64,000 bases of DNA, taken from the NCBI GenBank assembly GCA_017619375.1, contig JAFZSL010000075.1, positions 1 through 64,000 on the forward strand, given 5' to 3'. Below, one piece after another: positions 8,162-19,730 of the stretch. Within the stretch, counting starts at the first letter, position 1. Each line of letters opens with the position of its first letter. Under the pieces are notes generated by a model, which saw nothing but the letters and a program-made list of their open reading frames with translations, had not been told where the DNA came from and did not search any database. This DNA comes from Prevotella sp. Lineage in GTDB: Bacteria; Bacteroidota; Bacteroidia; Bacteroidales; Bacteroidaceae. A program made the translations under genes and the position numbers.

Positions 8162-10930
8162 ATGAAAGCAATTCGCCTTTTCAAACTATTCAGCGTATGG
8201 CTGATGCCGTTCCTGCTTCCTATGGCAGTGACGGCTGCACATGGCTATGTCGACCTCGGTTTGCCGAGTGGCACGCTCTGGGCCGACTGCAACGTGGGAG
8301 CTTCAGCATCCGAACAATACGGCGACTTCTACGCCTGGGGTGAGACACAAACGAAGACTTCCTACACCTGGAGCAACTACCAATATGCCAGCGGTTCGCA
8401 ATCCACCGTGCAGGACATCGGCACGCACATCGCCGGCACATCCTACGATGTCGCCAAGGCGAAATGGGGAAGCGAATGGGTGATGCCCACCCTCGACCAG
8501 GCCAACGAGTTGATCCATTATTGCGACTTGTCCTTGGCAAAGGTGAACAACGTCAAGGGCATCCGTTTCAAGGGGCCCAATGGCAACTCCATCTTCTTCC
8601 CCATGACGGGATACAAGGCTGACTCCGGCTACCAAGGGGAGGGCTCACAGACCTACATCTGGACCGACACCAAGGACATCGTCAACAATGTGGCATACAA
8701 GTCGATGGCGATATTCCTGGACAGAGGTTCATCACCTGTAAATATCAAGACCACGGGGGCCGCGCGCTACTCGGGCTGCGTCATACGTCCCGTCAAGAAA
8801 GATGGAAATGGCGGTGGAGACGTGACCGAGGATACGCCTTACGCTGTGTTCAGCGGTACGACGCTCACTTTTTACTATGATGAAAAGATGGCCACTCGAA
8901 ACGGCACGAAGTACGAACTGAACACAGGGACGAACAAACCGGGATGGAATGCCAAGGCGAGCAGCATCACCAAGGTGGTGTTCGACGCCTCGTTCGCCGA
9001 TGCATACCCCACCACGACTTACTATTGGTTTGGACAAATGAGCAAGTTGACTTCCATCACAGGTTTGGAGAACCTGATGACGGAGGACGTGACCAATATG
9101 GCCTATATGTTCTATGGCTGTTCCCAACTCCAGGCATTGGATTTGGGCACCTTCAAAACCAGCAGTGTGAAGAGCATGGCTTATATGTTCTCGGGATGTA
9201 CGAGCCTCACCAACCTGACGCTATATTATGGTTCTTATGGTCTGGAATATTTCTACTACGATACCAACTTCGTCACAACGGCTGCCACCAACCTGAGCAA
9301 CATGTTTGCAGGTTGCAGCAGCCTGAGTGCACTCGTGCTCGCGGATTTCACCGTGAAGTCGAGCACCAACACCACCGACATGCTCAAAGGTTGCAGCTCC
9401 CTTTATAAACTCTACATCACCACCGACATGAATGCACTCGATGCCAGTGCGTTGGCTGGAGTGGGAACAGCCAGCAACCCTTGCTGCCTGGAGTTCCACG
9501 AATGGGATGCGATGCCCCAACCCAGCAGCATCAAACCCACCTACTATGTGTGGAAAGGTGGATATTTCTACAACTTGCAGACAGGCTATGCTGAGCTGTC
9601 GGAGGACGGAAAGACAATGACCTTCAAATACGACATCTTCGATGATTTGTCATGGACAGGAACGCCCATACCCATCTACAAACTCAACTCAGGGACAGGA
9701 AAACCTGAATGGGTGGACCACGCTGCCAATGTCACCAAGGTTGTCTTTGAGGAGAGATTCGCATTCGTGCGGCCGACATCCTGCTACCAGTGGTTCAATG
9801 GATTGACCAAGTTGGCTTCATTCACGGGATTGAAGTATCTCAACACCAGCGAAGTCACCAACATGGCCTATATGTTCCAGAACTGCAAGAAACTGACATC
9901 CCTCGACATCAGCACCTTCACCTTGAAATCGGGTGTGACTTCCACGAGCATGCTGAAGAATTGCACCGCGCTGAAGAAACTCTCCATTCCTGCCACCGCT
10001 GGGTACTTGAACAATGCTGCATGCACCGGCATAGGCACCACCTCCAGTCCTTGCGAACTCGTCTATCCCTCTGGCTTCACTCCTGAGAGGCAATCGTCGG
10101 GGACAGGATGGTTCCAATGGAAGGGCGGATACTTCAAGGACGATGTACAACCCTCGCAGTACGCGATAGGCGACGTCAACCACGACGGCTCCATCACGGT
10201 GGTTGACGCCACGCTTGTCACCGACTACGTGTTGGGCAACAACCCGCCGAATTTCCACATCGAGAACGCCGATGCCAACTCGGACGGCAGCGTGACCATC
10301 ACCGATGTCACGAAAATCATTGACTTGGTGCTTGGAGGCTCGACGCCTCCCACACCACCCTCCACGCACAATTATGTCGACCTCGGCCTGCCGAGCGGCA
10401 CCCTCTGGGCCGACTGCAACGTGGGGGCTTCCGCACCCGAAGAATACGGCGACTTCTACGCTTGGGGTGAGACGGATACGAAGGCCTCCTACACCTGGGG
10501 CAACTACGAGTATGCCAGCGGCTCGCAATCCACCGTGCAGAACATCGGCACGCATCTTGCAGGCACGTCCTACGATGTCGCCACGGCGAAATGGGGAAGC
10601 GAATGGGTGATGCCCACCCTCGACCAGGCCAACGAGTTGATCAAATATTGCGACTTGTCATTGGCAAAGGTGAACAACGTCCCGGGCATCCGTTTCAAGG
10701 GGTCCAATGGCAATTCCATCTTCTTCCCCATGACGGGATACAAGGCTGACTCCGGCTACCAAGGGGAGGGCTCACAGACCTACATCTGGACCGACACCAA
10801 GGACATCGTCTCCAATGTGGCATACAAGTCGATGACGATATTTATGGACAGAGGTTCGTCACCTGCAAATATCAAGACCATGGCAGCCCTGCGCTGCTCG
10901 GGTTGCGTCATACGTCCCGTGAGGAAATGA
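8162..10930 (+). CDS. BspA-like secreted protein with duplicated end domains and internal dockerin-like module
   Basis: 922 residues. A signal peptide (1-26) is followed by a domain beginning YVDLGLPSGTLWADCNVGAS (about 29-213), common in Prevotella and Bacteroides surface proteins and resembling the Fibrobacter major paralogous domain. The centre (about 288-615) carries DUF285/BspA-type leucine-rich repeats (VTNMAYMFYGCSQLQALDL, MAYMFSGCTSLTNL). Residues 668-728 form a dockerin-like pair of Asp-rich calcium loops (DVNHDGSITVVDATLVTDYV, DANSDGSVTITDVTKIIDLV). A second copy of the first domain closes the protein (738-921). No sorting signal is recognisable at the C-terminus. Role: probably adhesion or carbohydrate/protein binding, inferred from the family. 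It is flanked by its own promoter box and a strong terminator. Confidence 0.9.
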   Translation: MKAIRLFKLFSVWLMPFLLPMAVTAAHGYVDLGLPSGTLWADCNVGASASEQYGDFYAWGETQTKTSYTWSNYQYASGSQSTVQDIGTHIAGTSYDVAKAKWGSEWVMPTLDQANELIHYCDLSLAKVNNVKGIRFKGPNGNSIFFPMTGYKADSGYQGEGSQTYIWTDTKDIVNNVAYKSMAIFLDRGSSPVNIKTTGAARYSGCVIRPVKKDGNGGGDVTEDTPYAVFSGTTLTFYYDEKMATRNGTKYELNTGTNKPGWNAKASSITKVVFDASFADAYPTTTYYWFGQMSKLTSITGLENLMTEDVTNMAYMFYGCSQLQALDLGTFKTSSVKSMAYMFSGCTSLTNLTLYYGSYGLEYFYYDTNFVTTAATNLSNMFAGCSSLSALVLADFTVKSSTNTTDMLKGCSSLYKLYITTDMNALDASALAGVGTASNPCCLEFHEWDAMPQPSSIKPTYYVWKGGYFYNLQTGYAELSEDGKTMTFKYDIFDDLSWTGTPIPIYKLNSGTGKPEWVDHAANVTKVVFEERFAFVRPTSCYQWFNGLTKLASFTGLKYLNTSEVTNMAYMFQNCKKLTSLDISTFTLKSGVTSTSMLKNCTALKKLSIPATAGYLNNAACTGIGTTSSPCELVYPSGFTPERQSSGTGWFQWKGGYFKDDVQPSQYAIGDVNHDGSITVVDATLVTDYVLGNNPPNFHIENADANSDGSVTITDVTKIIDLVLGGSTPPTPPSTHNYVDLGLPSGTLWADCNVGASAPEEYGDFYAWGETDTKASYTWGNYEYASGSQSTVQNIGTHLAGTSYDVATAKWGSEWVMPTLDQANELIKYCDLSLAKVNNVPGIRFKGSNGNSIFFPMTGYKADSGYQGEGSQTYIWTDTKDIVSNVAYKSMTIFMDRGSSPANIKTMAALRCSGCVIRPVRK
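8246..8799 (+). repeat. Long direct repeat, copy 1
   Basis: Encodes the first YVDLGLPSGTLWADC domain. It aligns without any gap to 10373-10926 at a constant offset of 2,127 bases and is highly similar at the DNA level. Confidence 0.92.
10373..10926 (+). repeat. Long direct repeat, copy 2
   Basis: Second copy of the 554-bp repeat within the same gene. The 2,127-base offset is 709 codons, so recombination between copies would delete the leucine-rich and dockerin parts in frame. Confidence 0.92.
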
Positions 10931-10999: not shown

Positions 11000-11043
11000 A
11001 ACCCCGAAGGGGTGACAGACCTTTCAGTCACCCCTTCGGGGTT
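11000..11043 (+). terminator. Strong terminator after the BspA-like gene
   Basis: Perfect 17-bp stem (AACCCCGAAGGGGTGAC and its complement) around a 10-base loop, 70 bases after the stop codon, followed by GTTATGTTTATC. It separates the BspA-like gene from the next operon. The rest of the 336-base gap (10931-11266) holds TTAAGGTCA/C 9-mers near 11098-11120, a degenerate heptamer array at 11123-11147 and a promoter. Confidence 0.85.
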
Positions 11044-11160
11044 GTTATGTTTATCGCCACTAACGGGGGGCTCTCATTTTTCAAGTGGCCCAAGTCTTTA
11101 AGGTCATTAAGGTCCTTAAGTCCAATTTTCAATTTCCAATCTTCAATATTATTCTTTTTT

Positions 11161-11192
11161 TTTGGCTTTTCGCTCATTTCTTTGTACCTTTG
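11161..11192 (+). promoter_or_regulatory. Promoter of the vWA/tubulin-like/actin-like operon
   Basis: TTTG (11161-11164), 20-base spacer, then TACCTTTG (11185-11192): a full match to the Bacteroidota -33/-7 pair. It lies 75 bases before the first start codon of the operon and downstream of the terminator, so the five genes probably form their own transcription unit. Confidence 0.72.
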
Positions 11193-11266: not shown

Positions 11267-12565
11267 ATGACCAGAAAGTTGTTGGCCCTCTTGTTGGTTG
11301 CCTTGCTCGTGGTGGCCGTCATCTTCATCGGACGAGGCGGGGCGCACGACATAGAAAGGGGTCACATCCTACCTGCCGACACTGTCACCACAAAGACTTC
11401 CAAGCCTGTGGTTAGAATCTTCATGGAGAATTCCGGAAGCATGAACGGATATGTCACCACCAACTCCCAGTTCAAGAACGCCCTCGGGCACCTCATCACC
11501 AAGGCCGATGGTTTCTATTCCGGGACTCGTCTCGACTTCATCAACCAGGACATCCATCATACGGAGATGTGCGACGACCTCGACAACTTCGTACTCCAAC
11601 TCAACCCGCAGTCCATGCAGGTGGGGAACACCAGTTCCACAGACATCAACAAAATCTTCAAGATGATTCTCGATCACACCAGCAAGGACACCGTATCCGT
11701 GCTGGTAAGCGACTGCATGTATGACGTGGACAACGTGGGAACGCTGCTCTCCGCCGCCGCCAACAGCACCACAGGCACTTTCATGAAGGCCATACGACGT
11801 GCCAAGGACGCCAAGAAGGAGTTCGCGGCCATCATCATGCAGTGCATGTCGGAGTTCAGCGGCAACTACTACGAAGGAGGGACCGCCATCCCCTGCAACA
11901 CACAAAGGCCTTATTACGTCATTGTCATGGGCAACCTCGAGCAAGTGATGGACTTCAACCGGCACATGGAACTGGAAGACACGCCCACGGGACTTCCCGG
12001 GATGACTCACAAGTACATGCTATCGTCCGAACCCACATGGATGCTCGACCCCGCCACGGCACGCATCTATTCCAGCACCTTCACTAACGCCTTGCGCATA
12101 CAGGCGCAGCACGACGGACTCAATGTGCGGAAACTCACCATCGACAAGGACCAGTCCAACCTCAATTTCGCCTTCGGACTGGGCATCGAACAACTCTTTG
12201 CCGACCGCTCCTATCTCCTCGACAAAGACAACTATGACATCCAACCCTCGCAATACAAAATCACCGACGTCAACGACAATGCCAAGTTCACCGAGTGCGA
12301 TTACTTCAAGCACCCCGTCACCTTGCAGGTCGTGGCACTGGGGCAGCAGTTTGCACCCCAACTCACCATACGCCTGAAGAACGTCATCCCGACGTGGGTG
12401 AAAGAGTGCAGTTACAACGAGAGGATAGGTGCATTGCCACCATCCGAAAAGTCGTATGCCCTCTACGAGATGGTGGAAGGCATCTACAGTGCATTCTACA
12501 ACAACAAGGAGGACGACAGCCGAGACCTCTTCCGGCTGGACGTCCGTTTCGACGCTTACGAATAA
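11267..12565 (+). CDS. Membrane-anchored von Willebrand A-like protein (operon gene 1)
   Basis: 432 residues. A single hydrophobic helix (about 5-23, no lipobox) should anchor the protein, with the rest outside the cytoplasm or, if inverted, inside. A vWA-like fold is suggested from residue 48: a beta strand leading to FMENSGSM, where the metal-site motif DxSxS has Glu in place of the first Asp; a Thr-rich turn (GNTSSTDINKIFKMI); and the strand TVSVLVSDCMYD, matching the VSDG segment of vWA domains. The C-terminal 200 residues are not recognised. It is followed after 24 bases by a small membrane protein and then by a tubulin-like gene; vWA proteins are known neighbours of the FtsZ-like families described by Makarova and Koonin. 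The vWA call is motif-level only. Confidence 0.72.
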   Translation: MTRKLLALLLVALLVVAVIFIGRGGAHDIERGHILPADTVTTKTSKPVVRIFMENSGSMNGYVTTNSQFKNALGHLITKADGFYSGTRLDFINQDIHHTEMCDDLDNFVLQLNPQSMQVGNTSSTDINKIFKMILDHTSKDTVSVLVSDCMYDVDNVGTLLSAAANSTTGTFMKAIRRAKDAKKEFAAIIMQCMSEFSGNYYEGGTAIPCNTQRPYYVIVMGNLEQVMDFNRHMELEDTPTGLPGMTHKYMLSSEPTWMLDPATARIYSSTFTNALRIQAQHDGLNVRKLTIDKDQSNLNFAFGLGIEQLFADRSYLLDKDNYDIQPSQYKITDVNDNAKFTECDYFKHPVTLQVVALGQQFAPQLTIRLKNVIPTWVKECSYNERIGALPPSEKSYALYEMVEGIYSAFYNNKEDDSRDLFRLDVRFDAYE

Positions 12566-12589
12566 AAACAGAAAACACCAACAATAACA

Positions 12590-13006
12590 ATGGATATCAT
12601 CAGTGAGATTCTTGAACTCTTCGGGGTGGCTTACTTCGGCGACTTCTCCAAGTACATGTTCCAGTCGGGGGCCTACAGCCCCGTCTTCTATGTCATGCTG
12701 CTATTGCCCATCATTGTGGCATTCGTCTATTATATCGTACTTGACCACATCCTGCTGGCCAACGTGAAGAAATGGCTGCTCATCGGCGTGACGACAAGCG
12801 CAGTGGCAGCACTGGTGGGCATGTTCATCGCCAACCAGAAAATCAAGGGCTTCACTTTCTCCCAAAGCATCACCGACACGGGGATGGGGTCGGCCGACTT
12901 CCTCTCTTTCGGCTTCATCGTCTTCGCATACAGTGCGCTTTTCTTCTTCCTCGCTTCGCTTATTCTCAAGTCCTTCAGCAGCAGGTCGAGAAACATTCCT
13001 TTCTAA
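12590..13006 (+). CDS. Three-helix membrane protein (operon gene 2), function unknown
   Basis: 138 residues with three strong hydrophobic segments, about 33-53, 62-82 and 105-128, and a short charged C-terminus (SFSSRSRN). The first 30 residues are amphipathic (ISEILELFGVAYFGDFSKYM). No family is recognised. It sits between the vWA-like gene (24 bases before) and the tubulin-like gene (55 bases after), so it may form the membrane part of the predicted complex. The loop between helices 2 and 3 (NQKIKGFTFSQSITDTGMGS) is polar and could be the partner-facing side. This role is inferred from position only. Confidence 0.8.
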   Translation: MDIISEILELFGVAYFGDFSKYMFQSGAYSPVFYVMLLLPIIVAFVYYIVLDHILLANVKKWLLIGVTTSAVAALVGMFIANQKIKGFTFSQSITDTGMGSADFLSFGFIVFAYSALFFFLASLILKSFSSRSRNIPF

Positions 13007-13061
13007 CAACGACAAGGGGTATGGCGAGAAGGCCGACACCCCTGGCAAGCATACATCCATC

Positions 13062-14522
13062 ATGAGCAAACTTTATATCTTTGGCATCGGAGGAACGGGG
13101 GCAAGAGTGATGCGCTCACTCACCATGCTGCTCGCCTCTGGCGTCGAACTCGGTGGGAACATCGACACCATCGTGCCTGTCATCATCGATCCAGACACCA
13201 GCAACGGCGACCTCACGCGCACCATCTCGCTGATGAACCTCTATCGCAAGATCAGGCAACACCTCAACTTCGACAACAGACCCGAGAAAAGAGGCTATTT
13301 CCATATCGACATCGACGATATGAACACCAACTTCAGGCTGCACCTCAACAATGTGGCCAATATGAAGTTCAGCGACTACATCGCATACAACAGGTTCACC
13401 AACCAGGGACAGGCCGACAGCAACCAGGCGCTGCTCAGCCTGCTCTTCTCCGACAAGAACCTCGCCTGTCCGCTCGATGTGGGGTTCAAGGGAAACCCCA
13501 ACATGGGTAGCATCGTGCTCAACGACCCCAAGAACACCGAGGCCATGATACAACTGCTCCAGCATTTCCAGTCGGAAGACCAACTGTTCATCGTCAGCAG
13601 CATCTTCGGAGGGACGGGTGCGGCAGGATTCCCACTCTTGCAGAAAACCTTCCGTGAGGCGGAAAGACTCAACCTGCCCAACTCTTCGGCCATCGCCAAC
13701 GCCGCCATTGGAGCCGTCACCGTGCTGCCTTACTTCGGACTGAAGGAGAACAAGGACAGCGAAATCAACATGGAGACGTTCATTTCAAAGACCAAGGCTG
13801 CACTGAAATACTACATCGGCAACCTCGACGTGGACAACCTCTACTACATCTGCGACACCATCAAGAACAGGTATGACAACGTGGAGGGGGCCACCGACCA
13901 GCGCAACAAGGCGCATTTCGTGGAACTCGCGGCTGCTCTCTCCATCGTAGACTTCGCCAACTCACACGTGGAGCACAACCGCATGCAGACCAGCACGGCA
14001 TACAAGGAGTTCGCCATCAGGGCCGACCAAAACCCCATCACACTCAACGACCTCTGTTCTGCTACGTTTGGTTCCGTGGGAAAGGAGATGATGAGTTTCT
14101 ACCTCTTCTCACGATTCATGATGGAGCATTTCCACCAGACAAGGGAATACGCTTGGGCGAAGATGCCTCAGATGAAGGGTGCAAGTTTCAACGATGCCTT
14201 CTTCGCCGACATCAAGCAGTTTGCCGACGCTTACAAGAACCAATGGCTCAAGGAACTCTCCGACAACCAGAGGAGTTTCCAACCTTTCGACCTCTTCGCC
14301 AACACCGACGACGTCTTCGACACCATCATGCGCATCGAACCCAAGAAGACCTCCATGCTGGGAAGGCTTTTAGGGAAGAACCTCAACGGATACCCCGCCA
14401 TCGACACTGAAATCTCAGACGTGTCCATGAAGAAACTCAGAGGGCTCGACACCTATAACTTCTTCATCACCGTGCATGAGACGGCCATCAACAACGTCAT
14501 CAAGAAGAAGTACAACATCTAA
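13062..14522 (+). CDS. Divergent FtsZ/tubulin-like GTPase-fold protein (operon gene 3)
   Basis: 486 residues. The N-terminus KLYIFGIGGTGARVMRSL has the glycine-rich first loop of the tubulin/FtsZ superfamily. IIDPDTSNGDLTRT (about 41-54) is placed like the T2/T3 region. The signature loop appears as SSIFGGTGAAGFP (GGTGAAG at 183-189), a variant of GGGTGSG. The protein is longer than FtsZ and resembles the Tubulin_2 group rather than cell-division FtsZ; there is no FtsZ-type C-terminal peptide. The ATG at 13062 is used because the conserved glycine loop follows it directly; the open frame upstream overlaps gene 2. It probably binds GTP and may polymerise at the membrane with the vWA-like and ATPase partners. 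Family at fold level is likely; function is unknown. Confidence 0.78.
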   Translation: MSKLYIFGIGGTGARVMRSLTMLLASGVELGGNIDTIVPVIIDPDTSNGDLTRTISLMNLYRKIRQHLNFDNRPEKRGYFHIDIDDMNTNFRLHLNNVANMKFSDYIAYNRFTNQGQADSNQALLSLLFSDKNLACPLDVGFKGNPNMGSIVLNDPKNTEAMIQLLQHFQSEDQLFIVSSIFGGTGAAGFPLLQKTFREAERLNLPNSSAIANAAIGAVTVLPYFGLKENKDSEINMETFISKTKAALKYYIGNLDVDNLYYICDTIKNRYDNVEGATDQRNKAHFVELAAALSIVDFANSHVEHNRMQTSTAYKEFAIRADQNPITLNDLCSATFGSVGKEMMSFYLFSRFMMEHFHQTREYAWAKMPQMKGASFNDAFFADIKQFADAYKNQWLKELSDNQRSFQPFDLFANTDDVFDTIMRIEPKKTSMLGRLLGKNLNGYPAIDTEISDVSMKKLRGLDTYNFFITVHETAINNVIKKKYNI

Positions 14523-14569
14523 AGGGTGGAAACACCTGAAATGAAACCAGAAAAAACAGTTCACCACAT

Positions 14570-17500
14570 ATGTCTTACGTATTCAGATTCCACAAAGGGA
14601 GCGAAACCATCGAGGGGTGGCAGGAGACAGGGCAGATCGGCACAAAGGATGTCGAGGCCATCGAAGACCCCAACGGCGCAAAGGCTTCACTGCCCATCAC
14701 ATCCATTCCCACTCCCTTCGCGGGCTTCGAACTGGCAAAGACGGCATTCGCATACTGTGCCGAGGCCGGAGTGAAAGGCTCATCCATCTATCACAAATTG
14801 GCGGCCAACGCACTCGACGTGTTGGAGATATTCTTCGGCTTCAGGACCAAATACGCACGACTCTTCCAAATCGTCGTCTGGGACAAGGCCAACGACCTGC
14901 AGAGACTCGCAGCCGACGGCGTGCCGGAACATGCCGCCATGGCGGCCACCTTGCAATTGTTCCTCTCTCAAGACGGAAAGAGTTTCAACTTCTCCCGCAT
15001 GCAGTTCATCTACATGCTCAACTACATCGGGGAGGGAGCGCAAGGGCAAATCAACATCGTCGGAGGAACGTCGCCGACATCGGTTTGCATGGCATCGGCC
15101 AACGACCTCTCCTATGTCAGCGATGTGTATCTGAGCAACTACCACCTCGCCTTCCATCCCGACGAGGACGGCACCTACCGCTCGCTTGTGGGAAGGGACA
15201 GGGAATTCCGAGAGTTTGTTTACCTGCTCGCCAAGCAGCCTGAGTTCAACGCTCTCTATAACGAGTTCCACGCCTACGTCGACGCCTGTTTCAGGGCGGA
15301 CAACGATACGGAGTTCAAAAACCGGCTCAACGCCATGCAGCCGGGAATGTATGCCTCCCTCTACCAACCACTCCTCGCCGGCAGTTCGCAGATGATGCTG
15401 CCTGGCGACATCCCGCTGATGTGCCTTGGAGGAGACAGGATAGAGACAGACAGCGACTTCCGCATCCTCTCTGAGAGAAATGACGGTCGACTGCCGTTGG
15501 TGCTGCCGGCGGAACCCTATTTCGAACCGGAGATGCGCTACACCACCTCCTTGTGGAACGCACACCTTATGGCGCCGCTCACCGACAAAAGACCGTTGGA
15601 GGAGCGCACCTTGCCTTTCGACTCCACCCAATACCCATATCTCACCACCGACGATGTCTTCGAACCCTACCTCATCAAGACGGTGTTCCCCATCAACGAG
15701 GCGGCCTTCTTCACCAACCTCTTCAGAGGCAACAACAAGACGGCGGACGAATGTCAGTATCTCCTCCCGCTCAAGCCGGAGGTGATGAAATACCTGTCGG
15801 TGAAAACACTCACCGGGTATGCCGGCAACACCTCCAAACCGGTGTTCCAACTCAACGAGATGCCCGACGGACGCATACAGGCGGTCATCAACATACCTGT
15901 GCAGAAAGGACGATTCGTCACTCTGCACCGCGAATATACGGCGGCGCAAGTGGACCCCGACCCCGACCGCCTCATCTGGCCCATCATGGAATGCCGGTTC
16001 GACCTCTTCCTCTTCCCCTCCTACCATGTCGACGACCCGACGTTGGAAAAGCCCCAGCGCATCTACCTCGTGGACGAGGATACGGCAGGATACAAGAAGG
16101 AGCAGTTCCAATATTCCGTCTCGGCCTATAAGAACAACGATGCTGAACCGCTCAGGCACACCCTCGTCGACAGGGCCGACAAGAGAAGACAGTTCCTCAC
16201 CTCCAAATATTTCTGCCTCAACGAGGAGTTCGACTACATCGTGGTGTCCAACACCATCGCAAGCGGCATACTTGTTCCGCTCTACAAGAACGTGAGGCAG
16301 GGTGGAAAGGTGTTCGACTTCGCCATCGATTTCGGAACCACCAACACCCACGTGGAGTACAAGACCGACACCGACCCGGAGCCGCAACCGCTCACCATCA
16401 CACCCGACGAGGTGCAGGTGCTCTCACTCAACTCCACTTCTCAAAAGGCAGTGGAGATGATCGACCAGGAAGGATTGGAATCCTTCTTTGGAGGACCGGC
16501 GCAGTCGTTCATGCAGGAGTTCGTCCCAGTCACCGTTGGACAAGGAGAAATCGCCCGCTTCCCCATGCGCACCAACCTCTGCTACCGGGCAGGACACAGC
16601 GTGGAGGGAAGGGAAATCTTCCCGCTGGCCGACTACAACATTGGATTCCATTACGAGAAGGAGGACACCTACGACTACAACGAGACAAGACCCGACCTGA
16701 AATGGGACAGCACCAGGGGAAACAACCTGCTCGTGGAGGCCTATTTCGAGGAAATACTCATGCTCATACGCAACAAGGTGCTCCTCTCGGGAGGATTCCT
16801 CAACCGTACGAGCATCACGTGGTTCTACCCGGTGTGCATGCAACCCTACCAAATCGCCAACCTGGAGAATTCGTGGAACAAACTCTGCCAGAAACTCATC
16901 GCACCGCAGGGATACCGCTTGCAGAAGGTGGCGGAGTCGCTCGCACCTTATTATTATTACACCAAGAAGGAGGACGTGGATGCAGAGAGCAGGCCTGTCG
17001 TATCCATGGACATCGGCGGCGGCACCACCGATTTCGTCGTCTACCACACCGGCAACACGGCGGCCCTCATCTCCTCGGTGCGCTTCGCCGGCAACAACAT
17101 CTACGGCGACTTCCTTGGAAGGGGGACGGAATACAACGGCTTCGTCAAGGCCTTCGCTCCTGACTTCGACATGAAACTCAGGGACATCAGCGGAGTGAGC
17201 GATGTCTATGCCAAGTCGAAACGCAACAGCGCGGAGTTCATATCCTTCCTCTACTCTCTCGACAGCAACCCAAGAATGGAGGGTAGGGGAGTGTCCTTCT
17301 CCGAGGAATTGAGGGCGAGGCAGGACCTCAGGGTCGTGCTCCTCCTCTTCTACGCAGCCGAGGTGTATTATGCCGCCAAACTCCTGGAAATGCGCCATCT
17401 GAAGACACCGGCTTACATCACCGTCAGTGGAACGGCGTCCAAGGTGCTTGGACTTATCGGGAGCATCGACGCATTGCAAACTCTCGCCACCCACATCTTC

Positions 17501-17986
17501 AACGACGTATTGGGCGACGACGGGAAGGTGGAACTCAAACTGGTGGACAACCCGAAGGAAATCACCTGCAAGGGCGGACTGAACATGAAGCCGCGATATG
17601 TGGTGGACGACGTGGAGGAAATCACCAAGTTCAGGACCGGTTCCAAAACGTTAGACCAACTTGTCGTGCCACGCTACAAGGATGTCACCGCCCAGGTGAG
17701 GACGGAAGTGCTTGACAGTTACACGAAATTCGTCGATTACTTCTTCTCACTCAACAAGAAATACAGTTTCGCCAAATACCTCGGCGTCTCCAACGAGAGG
17801 GAATTCACCAAGTTCCGCACCGTACTCACAGAAAAGGCGGAGCAGGATTTCAACAAGGCCATCGAGGCTCGTAACGACAGCATGACGGAGGAAGAGAACC
17901 CCGAACTGAAGGACTCCCTCTTCTTCATCCCGCTCACAGGTGGCCTCTGCCGCCTCGCCCTCTACATCGCAGAAAACCCGGCTTAG
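14570..17986 (+). CDS. Giant protein with C-terminal actin/Hsp70-type ATPase domain (operon gene 4)
   Basis: 1,138 residues. The C-terminal half has the three nucleotide-binding motifs of the actin/Hsp70/sugar-kinase fold in order: phosphate-1 FAIDFGTTNTHVEY (about 583-597), phosphate-2 VSMDIGGGTTDFVVY (about 811-825) and an adenosine-type motif ITVSGTASKVLGLIGS (about 950-965). The first 580 residues have no recognised domain and are rich in aromatic and acidic residues; they contain no membrane helix or signal peptide, so the protein should be cytoplasmic. The nearest analogy is to SrfB-like and Hsp70-like ATPases, but I cannot place it in a named family. It follows the tubulin-like gene by 47 bases. 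A role in remodelling or driving assembly of the tubulin-like protein is inference. Confidence 0.82.
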   Translation: MSYVFRFHKGSETIEGWQETGQIGTKDVEAIEDPNGAKASLPITSIPTPFAGFELAKTAFAYCAEAGVKGSSIYHKLAANALDVLEIFFGFRTKYARLFQIVVWDKANDLQRLAADGVPEHAAMAATLQLFLSQDGKSFNFSRMQFIYMLNYIGEGAQGQINIVGGTSPTSVCMASANDLSYVSDVYLSNYHLAFHPDEDGTYRSLVGRDREFREFVYLLAKQPEFNALYNEFHAYVDACFRADNDTEFKNRLNAMQPGMYASLYQPLLAGSSQMMLPGDIPLMCLGGDRIETDSDFRILSERNDGRLPLVLPAEPYFEPEMRYTTSLWNAHLMAPLTDKRPLEERTLPFDSTQYPYLTTDDVFEPYLIKTVFPINEAAFFTNLFRGNNKTADECQYLLPLKPEVMKYLSVKTLTGYAGNTSKPVFQLNEMPDGRIQAVINIPVQKGRFVTLHREYTAAQVDPDPDRLIWPIMECRFDLFLFPSYHVDDPTLEKPQRIYLVDEDTAGYKKEQFQYSVSAYKNNDAEPLRHTLVDRADKRRQFLTSKYFCLNEEFDYIVVSNTIASGILVPLYKNVRQGGKVFDFAIDFGTTNTHVEYKTDTDPEPQPLTITPDEVQVLSLNSTSQKAVEMIDQEGLESFFGGPAQSFMQEFVPVTVGQGEIARFPMRTNLCYRAGHSVEGREIFPLADYNIGFHYEKEDTYDYNETRPDLKWDSTRGNNLLVEAYFEEILMLIRNKVLLSGGFLNRTSITWFYPVCMQPYQIANLENSWNKLCQKLIAPQGYRLQKVAESLAPYYYYTKKEDVDAESRPVVSMDIGGGTTDFVVYHTGNTAALISSVRFAGNNIYGDFLGRGTEYNGFVKAFAPDFDMKLRDISGVSDVYAKSKRNSAEFISFLYSLDSNPRMEGRGVSFSEELRARQDLRVVLLLFYAAEVYYAAKLLEMRHLKTPAYITVSGTASKVLGLIGSIDALQTLATHIFNDVLGDDGKVELKLVDNPKEITCKGGLNMKPRYVVDDVEEITKFRTGSKTLDQLVVPRYKDVTAQVRTEVLDSYTKFVDYFFSLNKKYSFAKYLGVSNEREFTKFRTVLTEKAEQDFNKAIEARNDSMTEEENPELKDSLFFIPLTGGLCRLALYIAENPA

Positions 17987-18003
17987 GCAAGGTTTCTTCG
18001 TAG

Positions 18004-18022
18004 GCGACGGCTCCGCCGTCGC
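18004..18022 (+). repeat. GC-rich hairpin between operon genes 4 and 5
   Basis: Perfect 8-bp stem GCGACGGC/GCCGTCGC with a 3-base loop, inside a stretch reading CTTCGTAGGCGACGG onward. Similar hairpins follow stop codons near 44103 and 47737 and lie in the gap near 28880. In an operon it could tune the level of gene 5. Confidence 0.6.
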
Positions 18023-18050
18023 TTATCAACCATCATTAAAAAAAGCAACC

Positions 18051-18653
18051 ATGGAAGTAGTGATTTCGCTTTTTCTTTTCGCATTGGCCATAGGCTATGT
18101 GGAGTATAGGTTCAGAAGCATCCGTCGTGACACCGACAAGGAACAGTCGGGTGCCTTTGATTTTTTCGCCACCAAGGAGGAGTTGAAGAAAGCGGTGAAG
18201 CAGTTGAAAGAACAGGCCGATGCCGACCGCCTGGCAGTGGAAGAGCGGATGGAGTCCATCGAACAGAAGGCGTTCTATGCCGCTGAGGTGAAGAAGGAGG
18301 AGGAAAAGAAGAAACTGCAGGAGCCTGCGGAAGACCCTGACCCTTCCGTGGTGTATTTCAAATGGCCTGCCGACGATGGCACCTTCGTCGACGCGCAGCG
18401 GCAGCGTTTCCAGACTGAGGACACCTATTACATGTTCCGTCTTGACGACTCGCGCACCAAGGCGGAGTTCACCTTCGTCACCATGAGCGAGACGCAACTC
18501 AGCAAGGCCAACAACAGTTCGAAGAAATACATCGAGAGGGCTTGCTCTTTCGTCAATGCCAAGTCCACCAAGTATTCATGCACACCAGGAAAGGCCCACC
18601 TCGACCGTGGCCGCTGGGTCGTGGACTTGAAGGCGAAAATAGAATACAAGTAA
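18051..18653 (+). CDS. Membrane-anchored coiled-coil protein (operon gene 5), function unknown
   Basis: 200 residues. An N-terminal hydrophobic helix (2-17, VVISLFLFALAIGYVEY) is followed by a long charged coiled coil (about 40-95, KEELKKAVKQLKEQADADRL) and a compact C-terminal domain of about 100 residues (VVYFKWPADDGTFVDA, TFVTMSETQLSKANNSSKKY) that I do not recognise. The ATG at 18051 is chosen because it begins the membrane helix; an earlier in-frame start would run back into gene 4. It is the last gene of the operon and is followed by a 24-bp perfect inverted repeat. A tether or scaffold role is inferred. Confidence 0.8.
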   Translation: MEVVISLFLFALAIGYVEYRFRSIRRDTDKEQSGAFDFFATKEELKKAVKQLKEQADADRLAVEERMESIEQKAFYAAEVKKEEEKKKLQEPAEDPDPSVVYFKWPADDGTFVDAQRQRFQTEDTYYMFRLDDSRTKAEFTFVTMSETQLSKANNSSKKYIERACSFVNAKSTKYSCTPGKAHLDRGRWVVDLKAKIEYK

Positions 18654-18655
18654 TA

Positions 18656-18728
18656 TTGAAAATTGAAGATTGAAAATTATAGTGTGCAAAAGGTGGTGCG
18701 CACTTAATTTTCAATCTTCAATTTTCAA
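18656..18728 (+). terminator. Very long inverted repeat between convergent units
   Basis: A perfect 24-bp stem made of heptamer repeats (18656-18679 with 18705-18728) is extended inward by AGTGTGC/GCGCACT. It starts two bases after the stop of operon gene 5 and lies between that operon and the converging ddh gene, so it probably terminates transcription from both sides. The same heptamers continue at 18806-18829. Confidence 0.72.
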
Positions 18729-18737
18729 TTTTCACAG

Positions 18738-18793
18738 TTGCGATTAAGTGAGAGCAGACCAAGCTTGCTTGGACTCTGCCGAGCGTGAGCAAC
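18738..18793. repeat. Nested-palindrome repeat, copy A
   Basis: Outer arms GTTGC/GCAAC enclose CGATTAAGTGAG on the left and GAGCGTGAG on the right. The inner hairpin pairs GCAGA with TCTGC and CCAAG with CTTGG. It shares primary sequence with 52831-52876 and shares architecture, with different bases, with 35735-35802. Confidence 0.7.
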
Positions 18794-18830
18794 TTCGACC
18801 GAAGGTCAATTTTCAATCTTCAATATTTAA

Positions 18831-19730
18831 TCACACCAAGTGCCCGATGATGCTTTCACGGTCGCCGGGCAGCATGTCGATGACGGGGATTTCAATCATC
18901 GTGTAGCAGCCGGGTTGCTGGCGCAGGGAGGCACGTGCCACGTTGACAAGCACCTGTGCGGTGAGGGCAGGGTTGTTGATGCTCATGGTGAACTCCATGC
19001 GCTGGTTTTGTGTCTGTCCGCTCACGCCTTTGCGCACCAAGTGAACGCCATGGCCCATGTCTTTCACTTCATCCACCGAATCCACTGCGAAGACGTGTGT
19101 CTCGTCGTTGGCGAAATAGGGGTCGGCTTTGATGGCTGCGGTCACCTCATCGAGTGATGCTCCCTCTTCCAGTTCCACATATACCATGCGGCGGTGCAGA
19201 CCCTCGCCTTTGGGGATGGTCATGGAAAGGGCGTCTTTCACGCCGGCTTTGGAACGAACGCATACGGAGTGGCCCATTGACATGCCGGGGCCGAAATTGG
19301 TGTAGGAGAGGCCTTTGGGGGCGAGGCTCTGCATCAACGTGCGCACGATGCTGTCGCTTCCCGGATCCCAACCGGCAGCGATGATGGACACCGTGTTCGT
19401 AGCCTTGTTGATGGGGGTCAAAGAGGCACGGTAGTCGAGGATGTTGGTGTGGATGTCGAAACTGTCGACGGTGTTGATACCCAACGGGAGAATTTTCTTC
19501 GCATATTCCTCACAACTCCTCGTGGGGGTGGCGAGGATGGCCACGTCCACATCCTTCAGTTCGGTGATGTCCTTCACCACATCGTAGGGGGCCAGTTCCG
19601 ACGGCTTGTCGGCACTGCCGTTGCGACGGACGATACCGGCTATCTCAAAGTCGGGTGCGGCCTCCAAGGCCTGGATGGTGAATTTGCCGATGTTGCCATA
19701 GCCCACAACGGCTGCTCTGATTTTCTTCAT
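18831..19730 (-). CDS. ddh: meso-Diaminopimelate D-dehydrogenase
   Basis: Ddh reductively aminates tetrahydrodipicolinate to meso-diaminopimelate with NADPH, a one-step route to the precursor of lysine and peptidoglycan. The 299-residue protein has the Rossmann start IRAAVVGYGNIGKFTIQAL. The family's AAGWDPGSDSIVRT segment and FGPGMSMGHSV dimer/substrate region are intact, and the C-terminal half carries NNPALTAQVLVNVARAS. Length and motifs match the Corynebacterium-type enzyme. A -7 box (TAATTTTG) lies about 75 bases upstream. It is transcribed alone, converging with the tubulin-like operon. Confidence 0.95.
   Translation of the reverse strand: MKKIRAAVVGYGNIGKFTIQALEAAPDFEIAGIVRRNGSADKPSELAPYDVVKDITELKDVDVAILATPTRSCEEYAKKILPLGINTVDSFDIHTNILDYRASLTPINKATNTVSIIAAGWDPGSDSIVRTLMQSLAPKGLSYTNFGPGMSMGHSVCVRSKAGVKDALSMTIPKGEGLHRRMVYVELEEGASLDEVTAAIKADPYFANDETHVFAVDSVDEVKDMGHGVHLVRKGVSGQTQNQRMEFTMSINNPALTAQVLVNVARASLRQQPGCYTMIEIPVIDMLPGDRESIIGHLV

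Follow-up and report, generated by a model that had tools for sequence, protein, structure and literature searches.

Background

What do a tubulin-like and an actin-like protein do when they are encoded side by side, among membrane proteins, in a single bacterial operon? The question is raised by five co-directional genes, here called A to E, that occupy positions 11267-18653 of a 64,000-nucleotide stretch of Prevotella sp. DNA (contig JAFZSL010000075.1 of assembly GCA_017619375.1; hereafter, the window). Tubulin- and actin-type nucleoside triphosphatases (NTPases) are normally studied in cell division, cell shape and plasmid segregation, and a first-pass annotation of the window had accordingly proposed that the five genes form an undescribed cytoskeletal system for membrane remodelling or intracellular positioning. 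We compared the operon with its relatives and found that it is an old, co-inherited cassette, which in most relatives with enough sequence is followed by a motor resembling the ZorAB motor of the Zorya defense system, and in fewer by exported proteases and nucleases. On these grounds we lean modestly towards another answer, namely that the five genes form the conserved center of a conflict machine that spans the envelope and is probably directed against phages. All features described in the window lie on its plus strand.

Results

Five genes are inherited as one cassette

The locus counts reported here refer to the best 80 named relatives out of at least 566 recovered by profile search of genome contigs, a sample that is biased towards the window's own kin. 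Loci with too little flanking sequence were set aside: we required more than 3 kb upstream for A and B, more than 4.5 kb downstream for D, more than 6 kb downstream for E, and more than 9 kb downstream for the motor, protease and nuclease genes. A and B adjoin C in 68 out of 68 loci, D adjoins C in 71 out of 71, and a homologue of E is present in 67 out of 70. The outcome by which the first-pass annotation would have been refuted, a neighborhood survey with the five genes rarely adjacent, is therefore clearly dismissed.

We then compared the five window genes with those of seven relatives. The ratio of nonsynonymous to synonymous substitutions (dN/dS) ranges from 0.04 to 0.26 in 27 of the 35 comparisons, with every gene included; these values are rough, since dS exceeds 1 in all but one of the 27, and synonymous sites are saturated in the remaining eight comparisons, of which four concern E. 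The window's five genes are under purifying selection. Because the arrangement recurs in relatives and every gene shows this constraint, it is not a product of chance. The reading of the locus as one operon, with five genes on the same strand and a promoter at the 5' end, is thus borne out.

A tubulin-superfamily and an actin-superfamily protein form the center of the cassette

Gene C (13062-14522) encodes 486 amino acids when it is read from the ATG at 13062 rather than from the upstream GTG of the mechanical open reading frame. Both motifs on which the annotation of C as a divergent tubulin-like protein had relied are present: the T1-like motif FGIGGTG (GIGGTG at 13083-13100) is found in 61 out of 77 homologues, and the T4-type GTP loop FGGTGAAG (13605-13628) in all 77. 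The Pfam profile Tubulin (PF00091) matches 50 of 54 family members at E ≤ 0.01 (best 3.1e-9) and Tubulin_2 (PF13809) matches 49 of 54 at the same threshold (best 4.5e-8). Taken alone, the window protein scores under both curated cut-offs (17.9 versus 27 bits for Tubulin_2; 19.3 versus 33 bits for Tubulin). A tblastn search with C returned a protein annotated as 'tubulin-like' on a Gloeothece plasmid (5e-17), and this homologue passes the Tubulin_2 cut-off (40.8 versus 27 bits). The sole solved structure matched in sequence at E ≤ 0.1 is the tubulin/FtsZ GTPase chain 3zid (E = 0.059). Tubulin_2 is described as the Pfam model for the FtsZ-like sequences of Makarova and Koonin (excerpts of PMC9871819). 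By profile and motif, C belongs to the Tubulin_2/FtsZ-like-1 group.

Gene D (14570-17986) encodes 1,138 amino acids, in which a region of about 570 residues without any Pfam match precedes the part that resembles actin and Hsp70. All three ATP motifs attributed to D in the first-pass annotation are present and widely kept: the phosphate-1 motif FAIDFGTTNTHVEY (16319-16360) and the phosphate-2 motif SMDIGGGTTDFVVY (17003-17044) each occur in 72 out of 75 homologues, and the adenosine-type motif SGTASK (17426-17443) in 63 out of 75. Among 41 family members searched against Pfam at E ≤ 0.05, FtsA matches 33 (best 6.6e-5), Ppx-GppA 19 and MreB 7; SrfB gives a sub-threshold match in six of the 41 at the same E-value. 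The best solved structure is MreB (7bvy, E = 6.8e-4), followed by Hsc70, actin and FtsA chains, and each of the 38 PDB sequences found at E ≤ 0.1 is a chain of MreB, Hsp70, actin or FtsA, apart from the hydrolase 1qqo, which is matched over the same region. Comparison with MreB by hhalign gave 80-88% over 34 columns in local mode and 0.1% in global mode, with FtsZ and vWA controls at or below 0.7%. These profiles and motifs assign to D a diverged actin/Hsp70-superfamily ATPase domain.

When the five window proteins are searched singly, their Pfam matches are sub-threshold, none comes near an NCBIfam cut-off and none matches PADLOC. The profile search that had been suggested for the locus thus recovers tubulin for C and actin/Hsp70 for D at the level of the families, and vWA for A in only two of 51 members.

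The flanking genes encode membrane proteins

Gene A (11267-12565, 432 amino acids) has one N-terminal hydrophobic segment by hydropathy, in agreement with its description as a membrane-anchored protein. The vWA label is weaker than had been implied, as the Pfam profile VWA_CoxE accounts for the two matches just mentioned (E ≤ 0.05, best 0.011) and the label otherwise depends on a motif. This motif, ENSGSM (11426-11443), resembles a metal ion-dependent adhesion site (MIDAS) in which Glu replaces the first Asp of DxSxS. The replacement prevails in the family, with E[NR]SGSM in 48 out of 72 homologues and DxSxS in five. Homologues conserve this MIDAS-like ExSxS together with an Asp further along the chain, and E54, D149, G199 and P215 are invariant in 51 members. 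We therefore call A vWA-like, an identity resting on the motif. By a rule of our own, with matches of C and D as controls, 40 of 76 matches of A carry a lipobox, so that many homologues of A have a predicted lipoprotein signal.

Gene B (12590-13006, 138 amino acids) shows three hydrophobic segments, as expected of the three-helix membrane protein it had been taken for. Gene E (18051-18653, 200 amino acids, starting at the ATG at 18051) has an N-terminal membrane helix by hydropathy and a conserved C-terminal region; judged by eye, it likely contains a coiled coil. The window's E has no Pfam domain at E ≤ 0.001, and in its family nine Pfam families match one or two of 43 members each.

A ZorAB-like motor and exported enzymes follow the core in relatives

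Downstream of the cassette, a ZorA-like gene is found in 46 out of 62 loci and a ZorB-like gene in 41, and all 41 of these have both, a motor pair of MotAB type. A protease gene is present in 30 of the 62 loci and a nuclease gene in 13; within the 41 loci that have the full motor pair, the protease count is 26 and the nuclease count 13.

The ZorB-like identification is strong in terms of profile and motif. All 35 members searched match PADLOC ZorB1 (best 4.6e-17), and the motif W-x-S-[YF]-x-D-x-M-T is present in 40 out of 40. The best solved structures are the MotB-type chains 8vvn_B (1.4e-16; its title is MotB-related) and 8qyd_F (7e-9; its title is membrane protein), followed by flagellar MotB at 1e-4 or weaker. 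The sequence of 8qyd_F recurs in two further entries, 8qyh and 8qyy, in which chain A bears the title 'Anti-phage defense ZorAB system ZorA', and we take 8vvn to be a ZorAB entry as well. Further strong ZorB-like matches, away from any C gene, were seen at G007:C37:10858-11538, G016:C1:472724-473392 and G035:C27:94683-95363 (genome, contig and positions).

The ZorA-like identification is weak by the same measures. PADLOC ZorA1 matches one member at 1.3e-5, mostly over the tail, and another at 0.015; Pfam MotA_ExbB reaches 0.017 and the ZorA chain 8qyy_A 0.014, with unrelated coiled-coil and transporter chains scoring better. The tail is long and of coiled-coil type, and in 34 out of 46 members a membrane helix is predicted in the last quarter of the protein, which would anchor the tail.

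For the effector genes, Pfam identity was determined on one representative per type. The proteases are of Asp (retropepsin) type (1.7e-15) or trypsin type (1.8e-22), and the nucleases match SNase (5e-22), Endonuclease_NS (1e-50) or EEP (5e-13); a DUF6804 protein also occurs among the downstream genes. The trypsin-type effector matches the defense-system proteases RT-Protease_XI (3e-20) and LmuA (3e-10) in PADLOC. A lipobox is detectable in 13 of 18 Asp proteases, 11 of 15 trypsins and 9 of 16 nucleases, compared to 2 of 81 C and 0 of 83 D matches used as controls. Proteases and nucleases are therefore mostly predicted lipoproteins.

Such a motor could also serve a housekeeping machine that transduces force or exports material across the envelope, for surface-protein handling, uptake of nutrients or DNA, or envelope repair; the motor would drive processes at the outer membrane, where the enzymes, as lipoproteins, would process what arrives. 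Motors of this kind do so elsewhere, a force-transducing role has been proposed for vWA proteins linked to motors (excerpts of PMC12204202), and the lipobox in many effector genes fits as well. However, the small subunit is closer to ZorB than to flagellar MotB, no TolR/ExbD chain was found among its solved-structure matches at E ≤ 0.1, and the core persists through gains and losses of the motor and the enzymes. We consider a housekeeping machine of this sort unlikely, and keep to a conflict machine as the preferred reading.

Other downstream genes are seen in single loci or clades. In one motor-bearing locus, a GH25 lysozyme gene follows the protease (L161:17170-17952) and is a possible peptidoglycan-cutting effector. 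In a second Prevotella-type clade (L149:14776-16713, L153, L016 and others), one or two genes after E replace the motor; they have a zinc-ribbon-like N-terminus of the type CPKC...CPRC and a membrane helix, and two that were scanned gave no Pfam match.

The cassette is patchily distributed and is found on plasmids

In a sample of the genus, the C profile matches 113 out of 397 genomes, or 77 out of 225 when only good-quality genomes are considered. Eight of the 113 match only at E-values from 1e-18 to 1e-22 (G459, G465, G490, G607, G658, G696, G752 and G787) and probably represent a distant second family of C. In two loci from the same taxonomic order, L022 and L023, which are perhaps of this kind, a distant C is accompanied by a D-like gene. 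In a sample of the phylum, C is present in 11 of 389 good genomes (12 of 392 overall), in two of them only at about 1e-19. The tree of C, built by a quick method and rooted at the midpoint, places several separate lineages inside one genus.

In a plasmid collection, tblastn with C recovered six records, five of which are cyanobacterial. Two of the cyanobacterial plasmids hold C (7e-50 and 1e-45), D (1e-22 and 7e-34) and A (3e-14 and 1e-12) together. On one of them, the Gloeothece plasmid, A (3e-14) lies on the opposite strand, and both have at the position of B a small uncharacterized membrane gene that the B profile does not recognize. The tubulin-actin pair therefore stays together across the examined Bacteroidota and the two cyanobacterial plasmids, and of the loci with sufficient flank two thirds have a ZorB-type motor beside it.

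A phage origin of the operon was considered and rejected, as no match was found in 50,697 phage records. Four putatively viral IMG/VR contigs carry a relative: A-B-C-D is retained in three, of which two also have ZorA and ZorB (L240 and L241, the former with an Endonuclease_NS gene in addition), and in the fourth only C and D are recognized. Among the taxonomic labels, a metagenome-assembled genome named Oscillibacter has a C identical to that of a Porphyromonadaceae metagenome-assembled genome (L063 and L064); this and some other non-Bacteroidota labels (L047, L076, L077) may be binning errors.

A conflict role is weighed against a structural one

We favor a conflict system because the core is followed by a ZorAB-like motor, a protease and a nuclease in the proportions given above. 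The model for this is Zorya, where protection from phage is provided by ZorAB together with soluble effectors (excerpts of PMC11890865), and by analogy a conflict role may be inferred for the loci described here. Counted in support are the adjacency of the core genes, the plasmid copies, the motor, the lipobox-bearing effectors, the patchy distribution and the purifying selection.

In such a machine, C and D would act as one unit, a scaffold or switch under nucleotide control that B and E hold against the inner side of the membrane. A and the ZorB-like subunit would sense a disturbance of the envelope, such as phage attachment, local peptidoglycan damage or the entry of DNA. Ion-driven rotation, NTP turnover or both would pass through the complex, which would release, activate or position the exported protease and nuclease, and within the periplasm these would cleave the invader, its DNA being the probable target. 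In a bolder form, which we put forward tentatively, the locus would be a 'cytoskeletal Zorya': an obligate tubulin-actin pair would gate a ZorAB-type motor and deploy protease-controlled nucleases outside the cytoplasm, cutting DNA as it crosses the envelope, while in the window's clade the motor would have been lost and the core would have taken over the whole job.

Several observations weigh against a conflict role or against the identities on which it depends. Effectors are far from universal, with a nuclease in only 13 and a protease in 30 of the 62 loci. The looser signal or membrane label of our own rule is unspecific, with 56 of 81 C matches carrying it, so that only the lipobox counts were used. 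When profiles were compared, neither C with Bacteroidales FtsZ (0.1-0.6%) nor A with vWA proteins of the BatA/B type (0.4-3.5%) reached significance, although in the latter case the motif residues are aligned in register; for A, no solved structure was matched in the sequence search of PDB chains. The lack of a match in the phage records and the motorless state of the window count in the same direction: no ZorA- or ZorB-like gene was found by model search in the window genome, which is 99.98% complete. The ZorB model works, since it gives four strong matches in 60 relatives. G035 holds two of the four, one inside its C operon and one at another place, and the other two are in genomes without C (G007 and G016), so that membership in the ZorB-like family is not limited to C operons. 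Finally, a U32 peptidase or membrane gene is shared as upstream neighbor by the window and 9 of 31 genus loci. The operon is therefore often at one chromosomal site in the genus, which suggests long vertical residence.

This fixed site in part of the genus and the motorless window form would fit a resident structural role, in which polymers of C and D at the membrane would give it its shape or transport cargo. The pairing of a tubulin with an actin type at the membrane has a precedent in FtsZ and FtsA, and here, too, tubulin- and actin-type NTPases share an operon with membrane proteins. A remodeling role is also how Makarova and Koonin read the FtsZl1/vWA/OmpA operons in 2010 (excerpts of PMC2875224). 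Yet a remodeling or positioning cytoskeleton leaves unexplained the exchangeable lipoprotein proteases and nucleases and the ZorB-type motor, and the distribution is rare and patchy for a housekeeping organizer. Given the motor in 41 of 62 loci, the protease in 30 and the nuclease in 13, the role assigned by the first-pass annotation is not the best fit, and we regard it as improbable. If instead the conflict reading is true, cytoskeletal proteins are part of immunity and nuclease action is placed at the envelope. The function of FtsZ-like-1 operons, a question asked since 2010, becomes testable in named cultured hosts.

The window copy is probably a reduced form of the operon

In the tree of C, the window belongs to a clade of 13 rows (support 100), of which nine are motorless and four have too little flanking sequence. 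The clade sits beside Leyella stercorea (support 94), its nearest motor-bearing relative. This position makes a loss of the motor on the way to the window's clade probable, the alternative being a gain in Leyella. We also searched for ZorA in nine genomes taken as window-type, eight of which are mapped as motorless beside C or are the window itself and one of which (G609) was placed by C length only. Seven have no ZorA, G666 has one beside a second copy of C, and G770 gives weak matches only; three motor-bearing genomes used as controls score at about 1e-160.

As the motor and effectors of Leyella stercorea are missing from the window copy, this could be the decaying remnant of a larger operon. 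However, its five frames are intact, the constraint described above extends to all of them, and the motor is absent from every one of the nine clade rows with enough flank. The selection test largely refutes decay, which we deem very improbable. The best reading of the window copy is a reduced and maintained form of the operon. Since the five genes are kept under selection with neither a linked motor nor linked effectors, the core would have to act alone, with unlinked partners, or with another output.

Promoter, operon end and neighboring genes

About 75 bp before gene A lies a Bacteroidetes-type promoter (TTTG / TAnnTTTG; 11161-11192) that reads TTTG-N20-TACCTTTG, according to what we take to be the consensus. 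The pattern has six matches in the 64-kb window compared to 0.62 expected, and none of 100 shuffles reaches six. At the other end, an AT-rich inverted repeat (18652-18732) has 28-nt arms that are 96% complementary and is a possible terminator, unlike the classical G+C type. Of the one promoter and one terminator originally assigned to the operon, the former is supported and the latter is only possible. Copies of an AT-rich unit of the ATTGAAGATTGAAAATT type follow the operon in both orientations at 18652-18831, and a similar stretch is visible near 11125, before the operon.

A hairpin at 11000-11043 ends the gene upstream. This neighbor (8162-10930) encodes a BspA-like leucine-rich protein of 922 amino acids with DUF285 and a dockerin domain, and no sign was found that it is part of the operon.

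Comparison with known systems

The nearest precedents are the operons of FtsZ-like-1 with vWA and OmpA genes predicted by Makarova and Koonin in 2010 (PMC2875224, here and below in excerpts), where the legend of Figure 1 names cyanobacteria and Bacteroides caccae without giving the family of each row. The likeness lies in a protein of Tubulin_2 type, in the neighboring gene that is vWA-like by motif and, among relatives of the window, in an OmpA/MotB-type gene. The differences are that C has 486 amino acids compared to the 1,051-amino-acid type of FtsZ-like-1, and that the excerpts name vWA, GTPase, kinases and OmpA, and no actin/Hsp70 partner, motor pair, protease or nuclease.

Kaur et al. 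described in 2020 conflict operons centered on a GTPase, with tubulin and vWA genes or with HSP70 (PMC7159879, likewise in excerpts). These DO-GTPase/GAP1-N2 systems are similar in that tubulin and vWA, or HSP70, occur in membrane-linked predicted conflict operons. There, however, tubulin and HSP70 are non-overlapping themes, mainly of Firmicutes and Actinobacteria, whereas here the actin/Hsp70-type D comes after C in all 71 loci with sufficient flank. Pfam searches of families A, C, D and E and of a sample of the tail genes gave, Tubulin aside, no match to a GTPase or GAP1, and on this ground membership in the DO-GTPase system is rejected. A Walker-A-like string occurs in eight genes outside the core and motor families among 590 genes of the co-directional chains. 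The NucA-trypsin 'System 3' of the same authors also pairs a protease with an Endonuclease_NS-type nuclease, and a cytoskeletal core and a motor are not named in the excerpted description of it.

Calling the system undescribed, as was done at first, is therefore too strong, since operons with FtsZl1, vWA and OmpA and conflict operons with tubulin or HSP70 had been predicted. Searches of the open-licence literature of PubMed Central, a corpus outside which subscription papers and most preprints lie, turned up neither the actin-like D nor the link to a ZorAB-like motor nor the lipoprotein effectors. An operon combining tubulin, an actin-like protein, a ZorAB-like motor and an exported protease or nuclease is not described in the excerpts of PMC2875224, PMC7159879, PMC12204202, PMC12505986, PMC11890865, PMC8195603 and PMC9871819.

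The FtsZ/FtsA divisome is alike in pairing a tubulin-family protein with an actin-family partner at the membrane. C and D are nonetheless ruled out as FtsZ and FtsA, as the window genome has separate Tubulin-family genes (2e-44 and 6e-39). Membership of the window operon in Zorya (ZorAB with ZorCD or ZorE) is also rejected, as the window genome is without a motor, and PADLOC gave no match to ZorC, ZorD or ZorE among the five window proteins and ten proteins from four related loci. The relatives of the window share with Zorya a ZorB-like and a ZorA-like gene, the latter with its long coiled-coil-type tail. They differ from it by the core A to E, by the membrane helix predicted in the last quarter of most ZorA-like proteins and by the lipoprotein effectors; a cytoskeletal core and the proposed site of action set these loci apart from Zorya.

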